From contig MKVR01000026.1 of assembly GCA_001899235.1 (NCBI GenBank), positions 1 to 46,064 of the forward strand: a DNA stretch of 46,064 bases, read 5' to 3'. This DNA comes from Nitrosospira sp. 56-18. Lineage in GTDB: Bacteria; Pseudomonadota; Gammaproteobacteria; Burkholderiales; Nitrosomonadaceae. Shown piece by piece: positions 17,458-31,891 of this stretch. Position 1 is the stretch's first letter. Each line of letters starts with the position of its first letter. Under the pieces are notes generated by a model. That model saw only the letters and a program-made list of their open reading frames with translations. It did no database searches and had not been told where the DNA came from. A program made the translations under genes and the position numbers.

Positions 17458-17469
17458 TTCAGCGCTTCC
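17446..17469 (-). mobile_element. Miniature element end fragment, copy D, inside the EAL gene's 3' end
   Basis: The complement starts GGAAGCGCTGAATAATCC at 17469, preceded by CTTG (17470-17473). The bases G-GGA-AGC-GCT-GA supply the last codons (Gly-Lys-Arg) and the TGA stop of the phosphodiesterase gene. No opposite end was found. Confidence 0.65.
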
Positions 17470-18679
17470 CAAGGGAAAGCTCGGTCCGCACGCGCTCGTG
17501 CCAGATCTCGATCCAGCCGGGTAGTTCTGCAGGCAGCATGGGCCGGGAAACAAAAGCTCCCTGCGCGAGATCGCAGCCCGTGCGCTGCAGAAGATCCCAG
17601 TCATTCCGGTCTTCCACACCTTCGGCAACAACTTCCATGCCTAATTGCCTCGCCAGTGACAGACTGGCTTCATACATCGCCATCAGGGTCTCATTGCTCC
17701 AGGCGTGGTGGACAAACCCCTGGTCAATCTTGAGTTCATCGAAGGGAATATCACGCAACTGAGCCAGGGAGGAATGCCCGGTGCCAAAGTCGTCGATGGA
17801 TAGCCGGAAACGCTTCAGGCGCAGCCGCGTGAGTATCTCAAGCGGTGCCCGCGTATCCTGCATCAAGCGGCTTTCCGTCACTTCCAGCACGATATCCTGG
17901 GGAGCGATGCCGACTTCGGCAGTCATATCAGCAACAAAATTCAGGAAACTCAAGGATGCCAGATTATCCATCGACACGTTCACGGCAACGCGAAGCCGGA
18001 TTCCCTCCTCTCTCCACACTTTTGCCTGGATCAGCGCATTGCTGAAAACCCGTTGTGTCAGTTCGTCGATCAGTCCGAAAGCTTCGGCCACCCCGATGAA
18101 CATATCGGGAAATACGAGCCCATCCACCGGATGGTTCCAGCGCACCAGCGTCTCGACGCCAATCACCTCGCCGCTCGCGACCGCAACCTTCGGCTGGTAG
18201 TAATTGACCAGCTCCCGATTGTTTAGGGCAGCCTGCAATTCCTCCGCGTGGTAAACTTTTTTTGGTATCCCCTGGCCGCTGCTGGAAGGAGGAGTCCATT
18301 TATCGAGCAGCAGGGATAACGATTCCGGCCGGACCGGCTTGTGCAGATGCCCCAGTATGGGAATCTTGTGCGCCTGCACCAGTTTCTCGGCAGTCTGCAA
18401 CATGCGCTCATCCTCCCCGCTGACCAGGATGAGGCTGCCGGTATAATGGCGCTCGACGAGATGGCGCACGAATTCTATTCCATCCATTTCCGGCATGTTG
18501 AGATCCAGCAGGATAATGTTGGGCCGCGAGTTTGCATCGATGCTTTCCAGCGCAACACGCCCGCTATCGCACAGTATTACCGATGTAAATCCGAGATTGG
18601 CAAGAACACGGTTGAGCAGCTTGAGCATGAAGGATTCATCGTCAAGCACCAGAATCCTGATAGCGGATCGTTCGACCAT
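17459..18679 (-). CDS. Response regulator with EAL cyclic-di-GMP phosphodiesterase output (RocR-like)
   Basis: 406 residues. A REC domain (1-125) has the acidic pair Asp13/Asp14, phospho-acceptor Asp59 and Lys114; a linker leads to an EAL domain (145-395). All metal and catalytic positions of active EAL enzymes are present: Glu176 (E-T-L variant), Asn234, Glu266, Asp296/Asp297 in DDFGTG, Lys317, Glu353 and Gln373. It should therefore hydrolyse c-di-GMP to pGpG when switched by phosphorylation, as in RocR of Pseudomonas. It lies 246 bp after the hybrid kinase on the same strand, the probable phosphodonor. Its final codons come from a mobile element end. Confidence 0.9.
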   Translation of the reverse strand: MVERSAIRILVLDDESFMLKLLNRVLANLGFTSVILCDSGRVALESIDANSRPNIILLDLNMPEMDGIEFVRHLVERHYTGSLILVSGEDERMLQTAEKLVQAHKIPILGHLHKPVRPESLSLLLDKWTPPSSSGQGIPKKVYHAEELQAALNNRELVNYYQPKVAVASGEVIGVETLVRWNHPVDGLVFPDMFIGVAEAFGLIDELTQRVFSNALIQAKVWREEGIRLRVAVNVSMDNLASLSFLNFVADMTAEVGIAPQDIVLEVTESRLMQDTRAPLEILTRLRLKRFRLSIDDFGTGHSSLAQLRDIPFDELKIDQGFVHHAWSNETLMAMYEASLSLARQLGMEVVAEGVEDRNDWDLLQRTGCDLAQGAFVSRPMLPAELPGWIEIWHERVRTELSLGKR

Positions 18680-18925
18680 ATTGTTTTTCTAAAATATACT
18701 GAATAAAGCCTCAAACAAGGCGTCAAATGGGCTGCCTCATTGCTCGGTTTCACGTATTGGCATCGCACTACCTAGCCTAGCTGGCCTGCTTCGTTGTTCC
18801 AGGCTTGCCATTGTAATCATAACCCATGAAACCACGGTGGATAAACCTTGCGGCACGAAAGGTTTGTCCAGGGGATTCTCCCAGGAATATATTACCAGTG
18901 GCTTAACGTTCTCACCCGGAAACCC

Positions 18926-21900
18926 TCAGGAACCCTTGGTCTCCAGAGAATCGATATAGTAGCTCACCGACGTCAGTTCCAGCTCGAAGCGCGGCAATAA
19001 TTCTCTCAGCGCATCCATATCCCCTGCTTTCCCTGCCTGCTCCATCTGTTCACACAATTCGCCCAGAGCCATTGCTCCCACCGAACGGGCCGAAGACTTG
19101 AGCTTATGTGCGGCCGCCGCCGCCGGCGCGGCCTGCCCTGCTTCGCATGCGGCACGCAAGTCCACGGCGACTCTTGCCGAGCTGATCCTGAAATCGTGGA
19201 GAAATTCGCTGATCACCGCCGGATCGTTTCCTACCAGGTTTTCAAGGATGGTCACATCCACCGGTTTCTTTTCCGCCGGCGCCGCCGGGGATGCGAAAGG
19301 CGATGCCGCCACAAGATGGTCAGCATAGGCGGCGGGAGTTACGGGCGTCGCTGGCGCGGGCAGCCATTTTTGCAGTATCGCTCTCAGATGGGCAAGCTGA
19401 ACCGGCTTGCTCAGATAATCATCCATGCCCACTGCCCGGCAATGCTCCGCCTCGCCCTTCAATGCATTTGCAGTAAAGGCGATGATGGGCTTGCGGACCT
19501 TGTCTCGTTCGGCGAGACGGATCGCAGCCGTCAGCTGATAACCATCTATTTCCGGCATATGCAGATCGGTGAGCAGCAGCGCATAATCGCCGCTCATCCA
19601 GCGCTTCAGCGCTTCCTTTCCATCAGGGGCTATGTCTGCAGCGTATCCCAGCAGCGCAAGCTGCTGCCGGATGACTTTCTGATTGATTTCATTGTCTTCC
19701 GCCACCAGGATCAGCCTGCCTTCCGCCAGCGCCTTGTCTCTCGATGGCGCAACCAGCGAATCGATCTTATCCGGCTGCTGTGTAGCCATTTCCTCGTGCA
19801 GCCGTCCTGCAGCGATCGCCACGGCACGGAGAAAAGCATCCCGATGCATGACGTCGCCATCCAGAGTAACCGTATCAACGGCTTCGGAGCGCTCGTGGCG
19901 GCGGCGCCCGCGCCGGATGACCACGAACCGCGGCTCGATGTCGGGCTGATGGTGGCCGTGCTCCAGAACCACGAAATGAGGATCGAGATCAGGACGTGCG
20001 CGAAATGCTTCCCGCAATTCCTCTATGGGGGGAAAGGCATGTCCGGCATCGATGATCAATAGCCACAAGCCTGGCGGAAGCGTTTCTATCCGATTACGGG
20101 CCGCCGCGAGATCGGCTACCCGCTCAACGGCAGCCCCGCTGTATTTCAAATACACGGCCAGATCGTCGCTCAGCCCCTTCTCGTCCCCCAGCACCAGGCA
20201 GGAAACGCCAGCCAGGTCCACCACCTTCGCCACGGGTTTGGCAGGAAGCGCCACAAATGTGAGACGCACGGTGAATGTCGACCCCTTACCGGGCGCGCTC
20301 TGGACTGTGATACTTCCCCCCATGAGCTCGACCAGATGATGGGAAATAGCCAGGCCGAGTCCGGTTCCTCCAAATCTGCGCGTCGTGGAAGTATCGCCCT
20401 GGGTAAAGGAACTGAAAAGTTTTGCCTGGATCTCCTCGCTCATGCCGATCCCATTGTCGGCGATCTGGAACTCCACCGTCACCTGATCGCGGTCATGGCT
20501 GGCCAGAAGCGCCCGCACTGACACCCGGCCCGGTTCCTGCTGTCCGCTGGAAAACTTGATGGCATTGTTGGCGAGATTGACAAGCACTTGCCGCAAGCGC
20601 AACGCGTCTCCCAGGACCTCCTCCGGAATCGCCGGATCCAGGAACAAGGTAAGCTCCACGCCTTTTCGCGCAGCCAGGCTTTCGAGCATGTTGCAGGCCT
20701 TCTCGACGACGCTCACCACCGATGTGGGCGCCTGTTCGATTTCCAGCCGGCCTGCCTCTATCTTGGAGAAATCGAGAATATCATCGATGATTTCCAGCAG
20801 CGCAAACGCAGATTCGCGGATAAGGTCGACCATCTCCATCTGGTAGCCGTTGAGACTGGTCTGCTGCAGCACATCCGCCATGCCGATCACGCCATTCATG
20901 GGGGTGCGTATCTCATGGCTCATGGCAGCCAGGAAAATCGATTTAGCCTGATTGGCTTGCTCGGCATCGAGACGAGCCTGTTCGAGATCGCGCAGGATAC
21001 GCATTCTTTCGCTTATATTGATGCCCGAAGGTATGAGCTTGGCTATCTGGCCCTTCGCATCGCGCACCGGTACCAGCATGAAATCGATAGTCATCAGGCC
21101 ACGGTTGGCGATGCGTACAACCAGGTCGTGGCGCACGATCTTCCCGGCTAGCGCCTTCTCGATATCCTCGCGAATTTGCGCCTGCACTTCTTCCTTATAC
21201 GAAAACCATGCCGTTTCATAGAGTTTCTTGCCGATCACGTCCCGGCTCCGCAGGCCGCCCGTCTCCAAAGCAGTGCGGTTGATCTCGACCAGTACTCCGT
21301 CAGGCGTCATCTCCCCGACAAAAGCCCCCAGGTTATCCACTATGGCTCTCAGCCGCTGCTCGCTGCCGCGCAATGCCTGCTCTGCCTGCTTGCGCTCGTG
21401 GATATCGCGCAGAATACCGGTAAAGTATCGTTTTCCCCCGACGAAATATTCGCTGACGGCAACATACAGATCGACGAGCTGGCCATTCTTGTGCCGCCCC
21501 TCGACTTCCCGGCCCATGCCGATGTTATGTACGCCTTCCACTTCCAGGGTGAGGATATGGTCGAATTCACAACGCCCCCTCCCCGTTCGAAAGTATCTGT
21601 CGATATAGCCGTCATGCGCGTGGCGATGGGGTTCAGGCATGAGCATCGAAATATTCTGGCCCAGCACCTCCTCGCGCGTATAGCCGAAGAGTTTTTCTAT
21701 TACCGGATTGACCGAGCGGATAATGCTTTTGTCATCAATGGTGATAATGCAGTCCACCATGTGTTCCACAATGGAACGTGTCTCTTCTTCCTTGCTGACA
21801 AGAGCCGCATTGACGCGCTCCAGGTCCGCGGTGCGGGCTGCCACCCTGTTCTCCAGCTCCTGATTGAGTTGCCGCAGGTTGTCTTCGGCGTCTTCCCGCT

Positions 21901-23098
21901 TACGGGTGCTCGCATTCAATCGCTCGATCATGGTATTGAAAGTACCGGCCAGTTGCCCGATCTCATCCCATCCCCCAACCGGCACGCGTTGTTGCAGGTT
22001 TCCCGCGGCGATATGCTGTGCGCTGTGGCTGAGCTTTTTCAAGGTGTCAACAACGCGCCTGCTGAACAGGATAGCGCCAAGAATAGCGGCGAGCAGCGTT
22101 ATCCCGAGAATCACCAGGCTGAAAGTACGCACGCGCCTTCCGAATGCAAACACCTCGTCCGCATCCATCTTGACCTCGATGCCCCAGTTCATGCGCGGCA
22201 GATAGCGCCATGCGGCGACCACCTCCTTGGCGCGGTAATCTTCTTTCAGGCCGGCTCCACGCTCGCCATGCAGGCCGCTCTGGATCATTTTCGAAAATGG
22301 CGGGTTGTTAAGGGGCACCTTGAGCTCCAGCGCCGCATTGGGCTCATGTCTCAATGGCGCCATCACCAGGGCGGTGCGCTCGTTCAGAAGCCGGGTTATC
22401 ATGGTTTCGCCGCTCGCACCTAGTCCGACATTGTCGGTAACGACCTGGAACACGCGCTCGCTATATATCTGAAGCGCCAGGACACCCTCGAGCTTACCCT
22501 CAGCCATGATCGGAAAAGCCATGAAAGCCGCGATCGCGCCTTTCGACGGTCCGTAGCGTTCAAAATCCGACACGCCTTCCTGCAGCGTATCGAGCGCATT
22601 GCGCGCAACATAAGCCAGGCCGCTATTCCGGTAGGGTCCGGTGATCAGGTTGGTGGCGAAATCGATTTCATGGGCCTGGGTATAAACAATATCGCCCTGG
22701 AGAGAAATCAGGAAAAGATCGTAATATCCGGCATCCTCGACAAAACGCTTGAAATGCTTGCGGTAGCGGGCATCCAGTTGACGATACGCGGCGGACTTTA
22801 TCCCCTCTTCGGCATATGCCGCGGCAAGCTCCGGCATGGCCATGCGTGTGGTGCTGGCCGCCTGTATGATTTTGGCGTCGCGGAGACGCTCTCGCAGATA
22901 GCTATCGATCTGTTCTGCTTTCATATCGGCAATGGCGGAGACTTGCCGGATCGCCGTCTTCTCCATTTCGATTTCGAAGGTATGCAGCAGGCTGTAGCCG
23001 ATTATCAGAATCGGTAGCAGGGAAACCGCGACGAACCAGACGGTGAATCGCTGCGTAAGAGAAGTGAATCTCAAGGTCATGGGGAGGATGATGCTCAT
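18926..23098 (-). CDS. Hybrid sensor histidine kinase (dCache-HAMP-PAS-PAS-HisKA-HATPase-REC-REC-HPt)
   Basis: 1390 residues. TM1 18-38; periplasmic dCache-like sensor about 40-322; TM2 326-346; HAMP 347-400; coiled coil 400-440; two PAS domains (about 440-570 and 578-705); HisKA with His728 in SHEIRTP; HATPase with Asn845, DNGIGM (Asp881) and GGTGLGL; a degenerate receiver (964-1100) lacking the conserved lysine; a good receiver with Asp1178 (LLTDLHM) and Lys1231; and an HPt domain with His1331 ([10 protein letters not shown]). This is a complete four-step phosphorelay, able to hand phosphate to the REC-EAL protein next door. Its ATG overlaps the stop of the upstream binding-protein gene (ATGA), so they are made together. 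Confidence 0.93.
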
Positions 23099-24435
23099 GG
23101 CGAAGCGAGGCTCAGGGAAGCTTCCTCGCTTCTGCTAAGGAGTTGATCCCATTCTTCACGCGAACGGTAGCTCGGAAATGGGGCCGGCTCCAGCGGACGG
23201 CCGGAATCCCAGACGATATCGAACTGACCATCGCCCCGCGCCTTGCCGACACGGGCAATTTTCCACACATGGCGCGTCGCGGGATCGACCGAAACCAGCC
23301 CCTCGGGTGCTGGCAGGCTCTGGCGCAGGATGGTGCGCTGCACCTGGGCCACATCGCCCGAGTCCGCCTCGAGCGCCGCCTGTACCCACATTTGCAGGTT
23401 GACATAAGACGCTTCCCCCGGCCCGTCGATCACGGCGTCCTGTCCAAAGCGATCCCGGAACCGGCTTACGAAAGCCTTATTCTCCGCGCCTCGAATGCTC
23501 TGGAAATAGTTTCGCGCCGCATAATGACCCGCCATGGGAGGCATTTCCTCGGCGGACAATCCAACCTCGGTGATGCTGAAAGATAATACGGGTATCCTCT
23601 CGGGGGTGATTTCCCTCTTTTGCAGTGCGCGAAAAAACATTGCATTGTCTGTGCCGCTGATGGTATTCAGAACCATGTCCGGCCTCTTCCCGGCGATATC
23701 CGCCGCCAGATCGTCCATATCCGGAAGCCCGGCGGATATATACCGCTCCCCTGCTATGATCGTGCCATGCGCAGCCAGTAAATCCTTGATGAGAATACTG
23801 GCTACGCGCGAAAAATCATCGTTCGATCCAGTCAGGTAGACTCGTTTGCCACGCCCGCTATGGATACCGCTCTGGATACCGCTTTGGCCAGGCTCCCCCC
23901 GGTTACCAAGATTTACCAGCGCCCAATGAACCGCGGGCATAATCTGTTGATTGGGTACACCGCCCCCATACAGGATGTTCGTGGACTGTTCCATGCCCTC
24001 GTACCGTAGCGCATAAAAAAGTATGTGATGATGTTTTTCCACGACTTTTTTCACTGCCTTGCGGCAAGCCGAAGTCCAGCATCCAAACAACGCCTGTACC
24101 TGCTCCAGTGTAATCAGGCGCTCCGCCTCCTGTGCGCAATGCTCCGGATCGGAGCCGCAATCGACGACGATAGCCTCGATTTTTTGCCCTTTTATTCCTC
24201 CCGCCGCGTTTGCCTCCTCGATGGCAAGCCTAAGAGCGTCCACGAGCGGCTTTTCGCTCTCCGCCATCGTGCCAGTCAGCGAATGCAGCACGCCAATCCT
24301 GATAGGGGGTTTTACAGTAGAGTAGTGGCTTACTGCCAGGGCGCCGCCGATCAATACAAGGATCAGCAGCACCAATGGAATGCGCCTTGTTCCGCTAATG
24401 CCCGTGGCTCGCTTTTCTGTCGGCATACCATTCAC
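23095..24435 (-). CDS. Membrane-anchored UrtA/AmiC-like periplasmic binding protein
   Basis: 446 residues: short cytoplasmic N-terminus, one hydrophobic segment (about 18-37) acting as uncleaved anchor or signal, then a type 1 periplasmic binding fold. It carries the marks of the urea/short-amide group (UrtA, AmiC, FmdD; Peripla_BP_5): [52 protein letters not shown] and [12 protein letters not shown]. No ABC permease or ATPase gene is near. It overlaps the kinase gene by 4 bp, so a sensor-presenting role is more likely than transport. The start is the GTG at 24433-24435 (AAGGGAA upstream); ATG at 24424-24426 is the alternative. Ligand not provable from sequence. Confidence 0.88.
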
Positions 24436-24616: not shown

Positions 24617-25561
24617 TTAATCGCTAACCGCCGCACCGCACAGTGCTTTTACATGCGCCGCGACACTCCTGCCGAGCGCTCTGAGATCATATCCGCCCTC
24701 CAGCGTGGATATGATCCTGTCGCCGGCCCATACCGATGCCACCTGCATTATTTGCCGCGTCACCCATGCGTAATCCCCCTCTACAAGATTCAGCGAGGCA
24801 AGATCATCGTCCCGATGGGCATCGAAGCCGGCTGAAATGAACAACATCTGTGGCTTGAATTTCTCCAGGGAAGGCAGCCAGAACCGGTTGACTGCCGAGC
24901 GAAAAACTTCTCCTCCGCTATCAGCCGCAAGCGGAATATTGACCATCCGCTCCGAACGCCCCGAGATGCCGCTATAGGGATAAAATGGGTGCTGGAAAAT
25001 CGAGACCATCATCACGCGTTCATCGTTCCGGAAGATATCCTCGGTACCATTGCCATGATGCACGTCGAAATCCACCACGGCAACGCGTTCGAGAGCGTGC
25101 GCCTCCAGGGCATGGGCTACGCCTGCGGCGACATTATTGATAAGGCAGAATCCCATCGCGCGGGACCGTTCGGCATGGTGGCCCGGGGGACGAACGCTGC
25201 AAAAGGCATTTGTCATGCGCCCTCCAATCACCAGGTCCGTTGCCATGACCACCGCCCCTGCCGCACGCAGCGCAGCGTTCCAGCTATACCTGTTCATCGA
25301 GGTATCGGGATCAAGATGAACGATTCCCGTGGAAGGCACCTTTGCCGCAAGCGAAGCGATATATTCGGGGGAATGCACCCGCTCCAGTTGCTCCATCGAT
25401 GCAAGGGGAATGTCATGGGGTTCGATTCGTTCCATTGCCCGCATCAATCCGGAAGCCAGCAATTCATCATTAATGGCACTGAGCCGGGCCGGACATTCGG
25501 GATGATACGAAGCCATTTCATGCAGCAGGCAATCTGGATGGGAAATGAAGGCGGTGCGCAT
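24617..25561 (-). CDS. Histone-deacetylase-family amidohydrolase (acetylpolyamine amidohydrolase-like)
   Basis: 314 residues from the ATG at 25559-25561, chosen because CGGAGG lies 7 nt before it. Arginase/deacetylase fold with HPECPARL, the PPGHHAE histidine pair (His128/129), zinc ligands in DFDVHHGNG (Asp166, His168) and SAGFDAH, and the catalytic-loop tyrosine in LEGGYD. Bacterial members remove acetyl groups from acetylpolyamines or other acetylated amines in the cytoplasm; the substrate here is unknown. It precedes the binding-protein gene by 181 bp on the same strand, and could share its transcript. Confidence 0.9.
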   Translation of the reverse strand: MRTAFISHPDCLLHEMASYHPECPARLSAINDELLASGLMRAMERIEPHDIPLASMEQLERVHSPEYIASLAAKVPSTGIVHLDPDTSMNRYSWNAALRAAGAVVMATDLVIGGRMTNAFCSVRPPGHHAERSRAMGFCLINNVAAGVAHALEAHALERVAVVDFDVHHGNGTEDIFRNDERVMMVSIFQHPFYPYSGISGRSERMVNIPLAADSGGEVFRSAVNRFWLPSLEKFKPQMLFISAGFDAHRDDDLASLNLVEGDYAWVTRQIMQVASVWAGDRIISTLEGGYDLRALGRSVAAHVKALCGAAVSD

Positions 25562-25957
25562 GTAATTCCTCCGGTTCATGACGACGAGCTGGCGGCGGGG
25601 AGTATTTCCGCCTCGGATCGCCTGTCGGCGGCCACCGTCGCATATGGCGCCCACACCTTGCCCGGCATTCCGCCAGTTGCCCCGGGATTCCTCATATCAA
25701 AACAGCCCGCGCGGCCTCGGGCGCAAAATTGAAACGACAGTCCACTCCGTGATAACCTCTGCCTCGGTCACCCCGCTTGTTTACCCACTTATTTATACTG
25801 CATTTGAATCGTCTCATGGAATAATCTTCAATCCGGTAGTTGATCGCTTTTTTCAGTTTGGAACCATGATCCACAAAAACTTTCGCGACACTCGACGTTC
25901 ACCTGCGTGGTGGGTTCGCTACAAGACGGATTTAGGATAATAAAAATCAGGTCTTAA
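25562..25957. other. Divergent intergenic region between the deacetylase-like gene and lapD
   Basis: 396 bp without a supported gene. It must hold the promoters of both divergent units. A copy of the R2 repeat core lies at 25927-25942. Nothing else is recognised. Confidence 0.45.
25927..25942 (-). repeat. Short dispersed repeat R2, copy 3
   Basis: The complement contains ATCCTAAATCCG, matching the R2 core. It ends 16 bp before the lapD start. Confidence 0.4.
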
Positions 25958-27898
25958 ATGTCTCTTTCACGACAACTCTGGTTAGCCATCACACTGGTTA
26001 CGTTAATAAGTTTTACGGGCAGCTTTGCGCTAAGCATGGCCAGCATCCGCAGCCACATCGAACAGCAGTTGCATCAAAAAAATATCGATAGCGCCACCTC
26101 CCTCGCCCTTGCAATATCGCAGTTAAGCAAGGATCCCATTACCATCGATCTGCAGATTGCCGCCCTTTTCGATACTGGCCAATATGAGGCGATCTCCATT
26201 ACCGCGCCGGACGGCAGTATCATCGATGAGCGTACCCAGAGACCGGTTGCAGCTGCGGCTCCTGGCTGGTTCATGAGTCTTTTTCCAATAACGGTCGAGG
26301 CGGGGCACGCTCAGGCGACGGATCACGGAGTGCACTTTGGCGTCATCAAGGTTGCCAGTCAGTCCCATCCGGGTTATCGCATGCTATGGGACCAGGCGAG
26401 CACGCTGATGATCTGGTACCTCACGGCGGCCGCCCTTGTGGGACTCATCGGCGTGCTGATACTCCACGCAATAAAGAAACCGCTGGTAGCGATGGTGGAT
26501 CAGGCGGAAGCCATAACGAACCGTAATTTCCTGACTATTTCCGAACCCCGGATCCTGGAGCTGCGCAGCATCGCCCGCGCCACGAACGACCTGATAAGAC
26601 AATTGCATAACAGGAAGCTTGAAGAAAGCTCACGGCTCGCAGATTTGAACGAGCGCATGAACCTTGACCCGGTCACCGGCCTTGCCAATCGCGAATATTT
26701 TATGAACCGGCTGCGTGAAATGATGGAAAACAAGGCCGATGCATCGGGTGACATGCAAACCGGTATTCTGTTTCTTATTCGCCTCGATAAACTCGAACAG
26801 ATCAATCAGAAGCTTGGGCGCATCGAGACCGACCGGCTGCTTCGCGAAGCAGGCGCGCTCCTGAGCCATATCGGCGAAACTTCGGAGGGCGAAAACCCGG
26901 GGTTTCTCGCCGCCCGCATGAACGGGTCGGATTTCATGCTGTTTATCCCCCACGCCGACAATACCGAAGCCATAGCGAATCAAGTCGTTTCGAAACTCAC
27001 GGTATTGCTGTCGCGAGTTGGTGACGAGGTTACGGACATCTGCCACATCGGCGCCGTGCGATACCGCAAGGGGGACGAGTTGCGCGAACTTCTTGCCAGT
27101 GCCGATGCAGCCTTGGCAGCCGCCGAAGGCACTGCCAGGACGCTAGCCCGGGCGGCCCCAACCCGGGCCGGCCCGGCCGCGAATATTGGGGATTGGCGGC
27201 ATATTTTCAATGATGCATTCCGGGAGGACCGCTTCAGGCTGGTTCTCCAGCCTGTGGTAGGGCATGCCGGGGAATTGCTGCACCAGGAAGCATCCGTTCG
27301 CATGCAAGCGCAGCAAAACGGCGGCTGGCTGGATGCGCCGGACTTTATCCCCATCGCGGTGCATCTTGATCTGATCGGAACGCTCGATCTCGGGGTCGCC
27401 CGCCATGCCCTCGAACATCTGCATTCCTTCCCGGAAGATATCGCCATCAACCTCTCTGTCGAAACCATCGCCAATGGGGAATCCCGCAGCAAACTGACTG
27501 AATTGCTGTGCAGGCATCCGGATTTATGTCGCCGGATATGGCTCGAAATGACGGCATATGATGCCTTGCGTAAATTTGAGGCATTCCAGGATTTTTGCGG
27601 CACGTTCAGGGAAATCGGTTGCCGCATCGGGGTGGATCATGTCGGCCATTCCGCTGGGGAATCGGAAAAACTGGCCAGCTTTGGCCTTGACTACTTCAAG
27701 ATAGATGCCAGCCTGGTGCATCGGATTCATCAGAACAGGGAAAACCAGAGACGGCTGAAAGCGTTATGCGGCTTGGCTCAACAAACCGGCATTATCGTGA
27801 TCGCATGCGGGGTGCAAACCGAAGAAGAACAGAAAGCCCTGGTCAAATTGGGATTTGATGGCTTGGCTGGACCCGGTATCGATTTAAAATCAGAATGA
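25958..27898 (+). CDS. lapD: LapD-like c-di-GMP receptor with degenerate GGDEF and EAL domains
   Basis: 646 residues. TM1 9-29; periplasmic LapD/MoxY-N domain 30-148 with FDTGQY and G-W-F (Trp104); TM2 150-170; HAMP 170-222; GGDEF-like 235-395; EAL-like 410-640. The N-terminus (MSLSRQLWLAI...FTGSFALSM) resembles Pseudomonas LapD strongly. Both enzymes look dead: GGDEF is NGSDF (322-326), EAL is EAS (444-446), DDFG is DHVG (560-563) and AEGVE is ACGVQ. Known LapD binds c-di-GMP inside and holds the protease LapG outside, keeping adhesins on the surface. No lapG or adhesin is in the window. Divergent from the sensing operon. Confidence 0.88.
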   Translation: MSLSRQLWLAITLVTLISFTGSFALSMASIRSHIEQQLHQKNIDSATSLALAISQLSKDPITIDLQIAALFDTGQYEAISITAPDGSIIDERTQRPVAAAAPGWFMSLFPITVEAGHAQATDHGVHFGVIKVASQSHPGYRMLWDQASTLMIWYLTAAALVGLIGVLILHAIKKPLVAMVDQAEAITNRNFLTISEPRILELRSIARATNDLIRQLHNRKLEESSRLADLNERMNLDPVTGLANREYFMNRLREMMENKADASGDMQTGILFLIRLDKLEQINQKLGRIETDRLLREAGALLSHIGETSEGENPGFLAARMNGSDFMLFIPHADNTEAIANQVVSKLTVLLSRVGDEVTDICHIGAVRYRKGDELRELLASADAALAAAEGTARTLARAAPTRAGPAANIGDWRHIFNDAFREDRFRLVLQPVVGHAGELLHQEASVRMQAQQNGGWLDAPDFIPIAVHLDLIGTLDLGVARHALEHLHSFPEDIAINLSVETIANGESRSKLTELLCRHPDLCRRIWLEMTAYDALRKFEAFQDFCGTFREIGCRIGVDHVGHSAGESEKLASFGLDYFKIDASLVHRIHQNRENQRRLKALCGLAQQTGIIVIACGVQTEEEQKALVKLGFDGLAGPGIDLKSE

Positions 27899-31388: not shown

Positions 31389-31781
31389 CTATTTCGCCTG
31401 CTCTTTCTGCTTCAGGTGGAGATATGCTCTCGACGCCGCCTCACCGCCAGCTCTTGCGTTTCCCTTTCTCGCTTCGCTGATCGCCAGCGCCATCTCTTCA
31501 AAGAGCGCATCATCATACTCCGCTTTCGGGTTCTCTCCATATATATGCAGGCTCGGATGCGTATAAGGATGTTCCCTGTTCTGCTGAATCAATTGTTCTC
31601 TGGCCGCCTCGGTATGCCTGACCACCGCTGTTGCACTTCCTTCTCTGCCGCTTTCAATCGCTTTTTTCAGTAATCGCTCAGCCTTTTTCTCATGGTCTTC
31701 CTGTGCATGGCCCACTGAGGCGATTCCAAAAAGACCGGCAAAACCCGCTAGAAGAATGAAATCGATAACACTTTTGTTCAT
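31389..31781 (-). CDS. SmbP-like small periplasmic metal-binding protein
   Basis: 130 residues from the ATG at 31779-31781, chosen for its GGAG ribosome site 7 nt upstream and the signal peptide it starts (MNKSVIDFILLAGFAGLFGI, cut near G-H-A). The mature part is all-helical and resembles SmbP, the periplasmic copper-binding protein of Nitrosomonas europaea (KKAIESGREGSATAVVRHTEAA compares with its heptad-like repeats). It has fewer histidines than SmbP, so metal binding may be weaker. A central stretch (HPYTHPSLHIYGENPKAEYD) is extra. Convergent with the aldolase gene. Confidence 0.65.
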   Translation of the reverse strand: MNKSVIDFILLAGFAGLFGIASVGHAQEDHEKKAERLLKKAIESGREGSATAVVRHTEAAREQLIQQNREHPYTHPSLHIYGENPKAEYDDALFEEMALAISEARKGNARAGGEAASRAYLHLKQKEQAK

Positions 31782-31891
31782 TGGATTTCTCCGATGAAAT
31801 AGGCGCACGGTGAGGCGCACGGTGCGAGAAGCAGGCTTCCGGTAAAATCGATAGACATCTCGCTCCATCACCTCGCCCAGGCATAGCTATC

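Follow-up and report, generated by a model that had tools for sequence, protein, structure and literature searches.

What is the role of a urea-type binding protein that stands beside a sensor kinase and not beside a transporter? The question is raised by a stretch of 46,064 nucleotides from Nitrosospira sp. 56-18 (contig MKVR01000026.1), called here the window. Its host is probably an ammonia oxidiser. The window carries a gene for a substrate-binding protein (SBP) of the UrtA family, followed by genes for a hybrid histidine kinase and for a response regulator with receiver and EAL domains (REC-EAL). An earlier note read these three genes as a sensor of a small amide, perhaps urea, that acts on cyclic di-GMP (c-di-GMP). 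We consider it fairly likely that the SBP is a dedicated subunit which controls the adjoining dCache-HAMP hybrid kinase and, through it, c-di-GMP. In the same reading, the SBP and the dCache domain form a sensory cassette, and the pocket of the window SBP has been remodelled. The features are as follows:

17459..18679, minus strand: REC-EAL response regulator gene, predicted to be a working c-di-GMP phosphodiesterase and similar to RocR along its entire length
18680..18925, no strand: intergenic gap between the kinase and REC-EAL genes, 246 bp
18926..23098, minus strand: hybrid histidine kinase gene, 1390 amino acids, domains from Pfam
22178..22966, minus strand: dCache sensor domain of the kinase (residues 45-307), conserved partner of the SBP family
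23095..24435, minus strand: UrtA-family SBP gene, 446 amino acids, GTG start
24617..25654, minus strand: histone-deacetylase-like (HDAC-like) hydrolase gene (PF00850), 181 bp upstream of the SBP gene
25958..27898, plus strand: LapD-like gene (LapD_MoxY_N, degenerate GGDEF and EAL), divergent

The gene coordinates given in the earlier note are exact, and so is the 4-bp overlap between the SBP stop and the kinase start. These two genes form the only tightly coupled pair. The SBP belongs to Peripla_BP_5 (Pfam, E 5.6e-133). It scores 359.6 bits against the UrtA model TIGR03407, below the curated cut-off of 492.75. A type I periplasmic binding fold follows an N-terminal hydrophobic helix (residues 18-39), with A-L-A, a possible cleavage site, at the helix end. 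Its AlphaFold2 model, built on a 37-row alignment of the window and related loci, has a mean pLDDT of 89.4 and a pTM of 0.86. The nearest fold is the urea-binding protein 8tg1 (TM 0.91 by target length, 39% identity). Next come 7s6e, 7s6f and 8hic, and AmiC comes after these.

The kinase has the Pfam architecture dCache_1-HAMP-PAS-PAS-HisKA-HATPase_c-REC-Hpt. The full phosphorelay described earlier is in place: His728 (HisKA), Asp1178 (REC) and His1331 (Hpt) are all present in their expected motifs. TorS is the top NCBIfam model, with 399 bits against a cut-off of 676.5. The N-terminal 359 residues are modelled by AlphaFold2 with a mean pLDDT of 93.9. For the dCache domain, a sequence-profile search of solved structures brought up only McpU (E 0.0098).

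Does the SBP work with this receptor or with a transporter? The earlier note saw no ABC permease, and a comparison of the window with UrtB, UrtC and UrtD queries found none. At E 0.001, the genome has no second TIGR03407 match besides the window SBP. On these two grounds, a remnant ABC transporter was rejected.

We then looked at related loci. The set consists of the best 80 of 353, found partly via the peptide DGQFDIVW. Partner classes come from phmmer against domains of the window and the loci, and from Pfam on 25 proteins, neighbouring or fused, of related loci and on 7 of the family. Manual assignment was used for the fusions and for five dCache cases that overlapped. Phyla are as given in the database records, mostly of metagenome bins. 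The SBP adjoins a dCache receptor in 72 of the 80 loci. These 72 cover 12 named phyla, with 42 loci in Pseudomonadota, 11 in Planctomycetota and 2 unplaced. Their outputs are diverse: 20 PAS-kinases of the window type (3 cut by contig ends), 23 other histidine kinases, 11 GGDEF-EAL proteins, 13 methyl-accepting chemotaxis proteins and 2 SpoIIE/PP2C proteins, and 3 loci are cut before the output. The remaining eight consist of three Ser/Thr kinase fusions, one TrmB fusion locus with a second long protein, one chemoreceptor without dCache, one real transporter, one contig end and one partnerless SBP.

Genome searches in both directions give a similar picture. Over 299 Pseudomonadota genomes, the scores of an SBP profile split between 539 and 469 bits, with 35 matches in the upper group. 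A dCache receptor is adjacent in 25 of the 29 upper-group loci returned (own locus excluded). The other four are two chemoreceptors without a dCache match, one contig end and one other. There are exceptions to the split: G387 (469 bits) is dCache-linked, and so is L183, which lies 2 bits below the TIGR03407 cut-off. A reciprocal dCache profile over 150 genomes splits between 250 and 197 bits. An SBP is adjacent to 20 of its 25 upper matches (16 seen in loci, 4 by coordinates), with one contig end and four without. All ten low-scoring dCache loci returned are chemoreceptors with no SBP within a flank of about 1.5 kb.

Phylogeny places the receptor SBPs together. A 132-row tree (quick search) has one clade of 84 rows (SH-aLRT 99) that includes every one of the 78 dCache-linked rows. 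The rest of this clade consists of the three Ser/Thr kinase fusions and three others. Outside it are the UrtA transporters, the amide transporters, the AmiR-linked rows and two fusions of genus g3 (probably Nitrosomonas) on long branches. The distances of SBP and dCache correlate with r 0.80 over 68 pairs, where the best of 2000 permutations reached 0.14 (Mantel, shared ancestry uncorrected). Among pairs with different outputs, r is 0.65. In our reading, the SBP-dCache pair is a transferable cassette whose outputs swap. For the window, these counts support, as a prediction, that the SBP and the dCache kinase are one sensory unit.

The SBP could instead feed a transporter encoded elsewhere, and its nearness to the kinase would then be incidental. 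SBPs can indeed serve unlinked permeases. However, the two genes overlap by 4 bp, and a single SBP clade has dCache partners in the 12 named phyla. Furthermore, a second UrtA-type match (E 1e-60) is missing in 22 of 25 receptor-bearing genomes selected from the 80 loci, as it is in the genome of the window; the other 3 are planctomycete chemoreceptor genomes. We give this explanation hardly any credit.

The N-terminus also distinguishes the receptor SBPs from UrtA. We scanned it with a hydropathy and motif heuristic, redone on unique rows; it gave no score for 11 of 87 receptor rows and 1 of 34 UrtA rows. The hydrophobic helix is stronger in the receptor SBPs (median 2.43 versus 1.55). An A-x-A cleavage-like site is present in 12 of the 76 unique scored receptor SBPs, versus 26 of 33 for UrtA. 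The stronger helix and the fewer cleavage-like sites suggest that the receptor SBPs are anchored in the membrane.

What does the window SBP bind? The pocket was judged by alignment to UrtA residues; some genes are represented twice among the pocket rows, once per collection (17 such pairs fall in the window clade and 3 are transporters). According to the available portion of PMC10392092, the urea site of UrtA consists of W120, S122, Y141, Q144, E146, Y190, F192, N246 and S274. The bonds to urea come from S122, Q144, Y190 and N246 (same portion of PMC10392092). The window SBP keeps W120, S122, Y141, E146, F192 (its F208) and S274 (its S287). It replaces Q144 with R144, Y190 with D206 and N246 with S260. 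Thus, three of the four urea-bonding residues are changed and S122 is kept. The urea and short-amide family motifs reported earlier are therefore there only in part.

Among unique transporter-linked rows, 34 of 43 keep W120, S122, Q144, Y190 and N246. The other nine include amidase-linked operons and also L185, L186 and L187. These last three lie above the TIGR03407 cut-off with a changed pocket, so the cut-off alone is not diagnostic of the pocket. L185-L187 lack Q144 and N246, and the urea annotation of these transporter-linked proteins is doubtful. The AmiR-linked rows have the pocket [YIH]-S-Y-[LPHM]-E-Y-[YW]-[VI], and the window pocket does not match it. In the 132-row tree, the ten AmiR-linked rows form one side of a branch (SH-aLRT 96). 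The window SBP is not among them: it lies on the UrtA side, outside the amide rows (AmiC and amidase-linked). The tree placement proposed as a check in the earlier note thus speaks against its reading of the SBP as a member of the amide group. An amide receptor of the AmiC kind was rejected, since the pocket differs and the SBP is outside the AmiR-linked rows.

The change of pocket is a property of the window clade, which comprises the genus, its sister genus g4 and one Nitrotoga. Inside this clade, none of the 18 dCache-linked loci keeps the urea set. Outside it, the urea set is present in 37 of 54, A144 in 14 (13 chemoreceptors and one cut locus) and another pocket in 3. L028 and L031 (other Nitrotoga) and L141 and L142 (second systems of g4 and g3) are outside the clade with a urea-type pocket, so nitrifiers as a whole do not lack it. 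In the 299-genome sample, all nine positions are kept in 27 of 29 (F or Y allowed at 192). Asn occupies site 246 in 65 of 69 receptor-type rows outside the window clade, chemoreceptor-linked rows dropped. The ancestral pocket of the cassette appears to have been urea-type.

We examined the changes on a 32-row tree of the window clade and two outgroups. Site 144 changed 2 times, site 190 changed 4 times and site 246 changed 11 times. The value for site 246 exceeds that of 92.7% of 409 columns. On the other hand, W120, Y141 and E146 are unchanged across the 32 rows, and R144 is present in 19 of 22 genus members. It seems that the pocket has been remodelled under continuing purifying selection. 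The ligand of the window SBP is then probably another small molecule than urea. Because the positive R144 replaces Q144, an anion or a zwitterion might be guessed, weakly. However, D at site 190 and E146 could neutralise R144.

A further pocket type was observed in L059, L062, L068 and L072-L081, mostly of Planctomycetota. Here the SBP is beside dCache chemoreceptors, with A144 and mostly V246. These pockets look closer to the amide type than to the urea type.

Urease gives a second view of the ligand. The genome of the window carries it, as do 16 of the 22 SBP-bearing genus genomes: both with an intact pocket (G096 and G100) and 14 of the 20 with a changed pocket. It is also present in G112, the only genus member without the SBP. 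None of the seven SBP-bearing g4 genomes has urease. In g3 it is found in 50 of 85 genomes and in none of the three with an SBP. In the wider set, 3 of 40 genomes have it; one is the transporter locus L067, which leaves 2 of the 39 others (the 40 genomes were picked from the 80 loci, and some of their assemblies may be incomplete). SBP presence does not follow urease. Since urease is rare in cassette genomes and the SBP does not track it, the cassette is not just an aid to the use of urea, and this holds for urea-type pockets as well. The rarity of urease is a puzzle for a urea reading of the wider family too.

These data bear on the earlier proposal that urea or a small amide is the ligand, which we do not retain. 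The SBP could still sense urea if the substitutions were tolerated, and urea as a source of ammonia would then set c-di-GMP. In its favour, the SBP model is nearest in fold to urea-binding proteins (8tg1), most of the wider receptor family has retained the urea pocket, G096 and G100 combine an intact pocket with urease, and the genome of the window has urease as well. Nevertheless, with three urea-bonding residues replaced and no tracking between urease and SBP across the genus, g4 and g3, this explanation is quite unlikely. Urea was rejected as the window ligand on the replaced residues and the missing link to urease.

How stable is the locus among relatives? We used 125 genomes of the family, 23 of them from the window genus (own included), with an SBP match threshold of E up to 1e-60. 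The SBP is present in 22 of 23 genomes of the genus, 7 of 9 of the sister genus g4, 3 of 85 of g3 and 4 of 8 of g2. The three g3 matches are all divergent, and two are fusions. In g2, the SBP is beside Urt transporter genes in the three genomes inspected, of four with the SBP. All 21 SBP-bearing genus relatives inspected have the order HDAC-like, SBP, kinase and REC-EAL on one strand, with the LapD-like gene on the opposite one. The three genes thus stay together in the genus, a check that the earlier note had asked for. In the sister genus, the SBP-kinase pair occurs in 7 of 7 loci and the HDAC-like gene in 5 of 7.

The median dN/dS is 0.165 for the SBP, 0.098 for the kinase, 0.109 for REC-EAL and 0.186 for the LapD-like gene. 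They were computed on the longest reading frames, from pairs whose dS lies at 0.05-1.5; of 231 pairs, they retain 124, 134, 139 and 93, respectively. It means that the three genes of the system are under purifying selection, as judged from their codons. The synonymous divergence between the window and its nearest relative L113 is 0.54 for the SBP, 1.12 for the kinase and 1.31 for REC-EAL. The low SBP value could reflect recombination or codon constraint.

G112 shows which part can be missing. Its order is LapD-like, kinase and REC-EAL, and both the SBP and HDAC-like genes are absent. In g3, the same dCache kinase type stands tail-to-tail with REC-EAL in 4 of 15 loci and 11 kb away in a fifth. 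We built a dCache tree (quick search). The SBP-less kinases branch within the SBP-linked part of the window clade or next to it, and other SBP-linked rows lie outside them (SH-aLRT 92 for the G112 fork and 94 for the fork with g3 rows). Because they nest in this way, the loss of the SBP in the G112 and g3 kinases looks secondary. The kinase and REC-EAL are neighbours without the SBP in G112 and g3. This points to a kinase/REC-EAL partnership and shows that the SBP is a losable part of the system.

A losable SBP could also be a ligand-free structural adaptor. Its pocket would be decaying, the dCache domain would do the sensing, the SBP would only tune the kinase, and the losses in g3 and G112 would be the endpoint. 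The repeated changes at sites 246 and 190, the SBP-less kinases inside the SBP-linked dCache tree and the dN/dS of the SBP above that of the kinase agree with this idea. However, purifying selection acts on the SBP and nearly the whole genus has it. The invariant W120, Y141 and E146, together with the common R144, look like a kept site. We regard the adaptor as a rather doubtful explanation and prefer a dedicated binding subunit with a remodelled pocket.

The next question is whether the kinase acts on REC-EAL. As stated earlier, this protein has every catalytic EAL residue: E176(TL), N234, E266, D296/D297, K317, E353 and Q373, by comparison with the catalytic motifs of EAL domains. RocR (3sy8) is its best full-length solved relative (E 1.1e-54). 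It reaches 275 bits against the PvrR model NF052596, below the cut-off of 580. REC-EAL is thus predicted to be an active c-di-GMP phosphodiesterase. Its gap to the kinase gene ranges from 40 to 580 bp in relatives, so the REC-EAL gene may have its own promoter.

The kinase and REC-EAL might each work with another partner. The variable gap and the separation of REC-EAL from the SBP and kinase in the sister genus would fit this. So would the 10 of 15 g3 stretches without such a kinase near REC-EAL, some of which are cut by contig ends. In these searches, no REC-EAL was found in the seven sister-genus SBP stretches inspected (two end inside the kinase), and no SBP in the 20 REC-EAL neighbourhoods read (1 of the genus, 15 of g3 and 4 of g4). 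However, the two genes lie side by side in all 21 genus relatives inspected and in G112, and the tail-to-tail g3 loci, with the fifth at 11 kb, repeat the association. We think it unlikely that they are not cognate. The pairing claimed in the earlier note is supported as a prediction.

The LapD-like protein has LapD_MoxY_N and degenerate GGDEF and EAL domains, with 383 bits against a LapD cut-off of 1020. It is probably a c-di-GMP receptor. The LapG protease (PF06035) was found in 0 of the 23 genus genomes, with a control search positive in Caulobacter. Because LapG was not found in these genomes, the LapD-like protein, if functional, would pass the c-di-GMP signal to something else. A LapD/LapG adhesion switch next door was rejected: its LapD-like half is present and LapG was not found. 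Among the 56 loci of the 80-locus set with complete flanks, 22 have same-strand c-di-GMP genes within 6 kb, versus 0 of 16 transporter or AmiR loci (the lineages are not independent). REC-HD-GYP and REC-PAS-GGDEF proteins occur near two further systems in the family. The frequency of c-di-GMP genes near related loci and the LapD-like neighbour make c-di-GMP the likely output of the window locus.

We propose the following mechanism. The SBP, probably tethered to the membrane, would act as the dedicated binding subunit of the dCache-HAMP kinase. A ligand would close its two lobes, and the closed (or open) SBP would press on dCache and change the kinase activity. Phosphate would then pass from His728 to Asp1178, to His1331 and to the REC-EAL receiver, which would alter c-di-GMP breakdown. 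Among the possible readers of the resulting c-di-GMP is the divergent LapD-like protein. The computation itself shows the composition of genes and domains, their conservation, the swapping of modules and the substitutions in the pocket. We infer in this scheme the SBP-dCache contact, the direction of signalling, the phosphotransfer, the ligand and the effect on lifestyle. A choice between attached and motile growth through this locus would be one such effect.

Several points weigh against this reading. First, the urea pocket is complete in G096 and G100, which belong to the genus. Second, REC-EAL has relatives (E up to 1e-70) in 107 of 125 family genomes, a wider spread than that of the SBP: 23 of 23 in the genus, 6 of 9 in g4, 78 of 85 in g3 and 0 of 8 in g2. 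REC-EAL thus appears older than the SBP, and in the sister genus it is located away from the SBP and kinase. Third, this kinase type can do without the SBP, since G112 and five g3 genomes have the one and lack the other. Fourth, faster evolution of dCache after SBP loss was not seen in G112. The G112/genus ratio is 1.58 for dCache, 1.56 for HAMP+PAS, 1.69 for REC and 1.25 for HisKA-HATPase; in the regulator it is 1.59 for REC and 1.78 for EAL. This rate comparison gives no sign that the SBP constrains dCache. Fifth, the peptide DGQFDIVW favours receptor SBPs (it is in 6 of 46 transporter rows), and the later profiles, meant to counter this bias, were built from the same loci. Finally, neighbourhood can mislead: in Pseudomonas aeruginosa, AgtB or PA0602 with AgtS and PA4985 with AruS are neighbours for which no interaction was seen (available portion of PMC11113362).

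The wider cassette is a more interesting result than the ligand of the window. Few bacterial receptors have a known input signal, and the UrtA site, which is solved and tested by mutation, offers a key to the pockets of a large receptor family. Each member then gets its own prediction. Most dCache-linked kinases and GGDEF-EAL proteins would be expected to read a urea-type ligand, the chemoreceptors (mostly planctomycete) an amide-like one and the window clade something new. Tentatively, the clade of probably tethered UrtA-related SBPs with its matching dCache domain might be a general plug-in sensor which widely reads urea or a mimic, with a receptor retuned in the genus. If it is true, urea or a close mimic would be a signal in cells mostly without UrtABC import or urease, and the genus would have retuned its receptor to a different small molecule tied to its own chemistry. 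The intact pockets of G096 and G100 and the altered one of the window, all within one genus, are a natural experiment. A correct reading would also give an input to c-di-GMP in ammonia-oxidising bacteria, for which attachment to surfaces is important in soils and in wastewater plants.

Other arrangements of UrtA-like domains were seen in the same loci. In g3, two UrtA-like domains whose urea pocket is intact belong to fusion proteins, L143:1163-4252 (minus) and L144:4317-6068 (minus), with HK-REC or GGDEF as the other part. These fusions lack a clear membrane helix and could be cytoplasmic urea-type sensors. The planctomycete Ser/Thr kinases L061:423-2852, L063:1107-3629 and L069:2-2047 have a C-terminal UrtA-like domain with a urea-type pocket and an interdomain helix. 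In Candidatus Peribacter, L065:90-2024 (minus) fuses a TrmB DNA-binding domain to a UrtA-like domain. L065:5930-7615 (plus) encodes a second long UrtA-like protein, with no domain assigned to its N-terminus. In L180, L182, L190-L192 and L195, an AmiC-AmiR pair is beside an amide transporter; in several of these loci the transporter has its own UrtA-like SBP, and formamidase or amidase genes are present. In the window itself, the HDAC-like gene tracks the SBP, being upstream of it in 21 of 21 genus and 5 of 7 sister-genus loci and missing with it in G112. Its product is a possible functional partner of the SBP system. A gene of the small metal-binding protein family (SMBP) lies at 31389-31871 (minus).

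Compared with known systems, the window SBP resembles UrtA of UrtABCDE (8HIC, 7S6E, 7S6F, 8TG1; TIGR03407) in its fold, its side of the tree and six pocket residues. It differs in its score below the cut-off, the replacement of Q144, Y190 and N246, the lack of a permease and the link to a kinase; the N-terminus of the receptor group also looks tethered. AmiC (1PEA), the amide receptor acting on AmiR, has a related fold and is likewise a sensor rather than an uptake protein. However, it belongs to the separate AmiR-linked group with its own pocket type, and its target is an ANTAR protein and not a dCache kinase. The neighbours of the window SBP are the HDAC-like and kinase genes instead of an ANTAR regulator.

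Sensor kinases stimulated by SBPs include TorT-TorS, LuxP-LuxQ, XylFII-LytS and ChvE-VirA. They use other SBP families and mostly other sensor domains. As in these systems, the window has a binding protein beside a transmembrane kinase. Unlike them, its SBP is UrtA-type, its partner is dCache and its predicted output is c-di-GMP breakdown. The SBP-receptor adjacency of the window is conserved in relatives. The partner kinases known for RocR and PvrR are, to our knowledge, not paired with an SBP. These regulators, which work with hybrid kinases, have the same REC-EAL architecture and catalytic residues as the window protein.

In the literature, SBP-activated receptors are an accepted class (available portions of PMC11113362 and PMC9602780), and of the 11 SBP-kinase pairs characterised, 10 are encoded close together (available portion of PMC11113362). 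The accessible part of one survey lists a single chemoreceptor with a Peripla_BP_5 domain (PMC8547431). Urea transport and use are treated in the available portions of PMC3098086 and PMC5596200. Among the full-text matches listed, from which subscription papers are mostly and preprints wholly absent, we recognised no description of a UrtA-type SBP with a dCache receptor. A close functional precedent is the pair ArtI-STM1987, which shares with the window the logic of SBP, dCache and c-di-GMP. ArtI is an arginine-binding SBP of another family than the window SBP. The dCache_1 diguanylate cyclase STM1987 needs ArtI, described as a putative periplasmic arginine-binding protein (available portion of PMC8846402). 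The output of this pair is a cyclase, and that of the window is a phosphorelay to an EAL protein.

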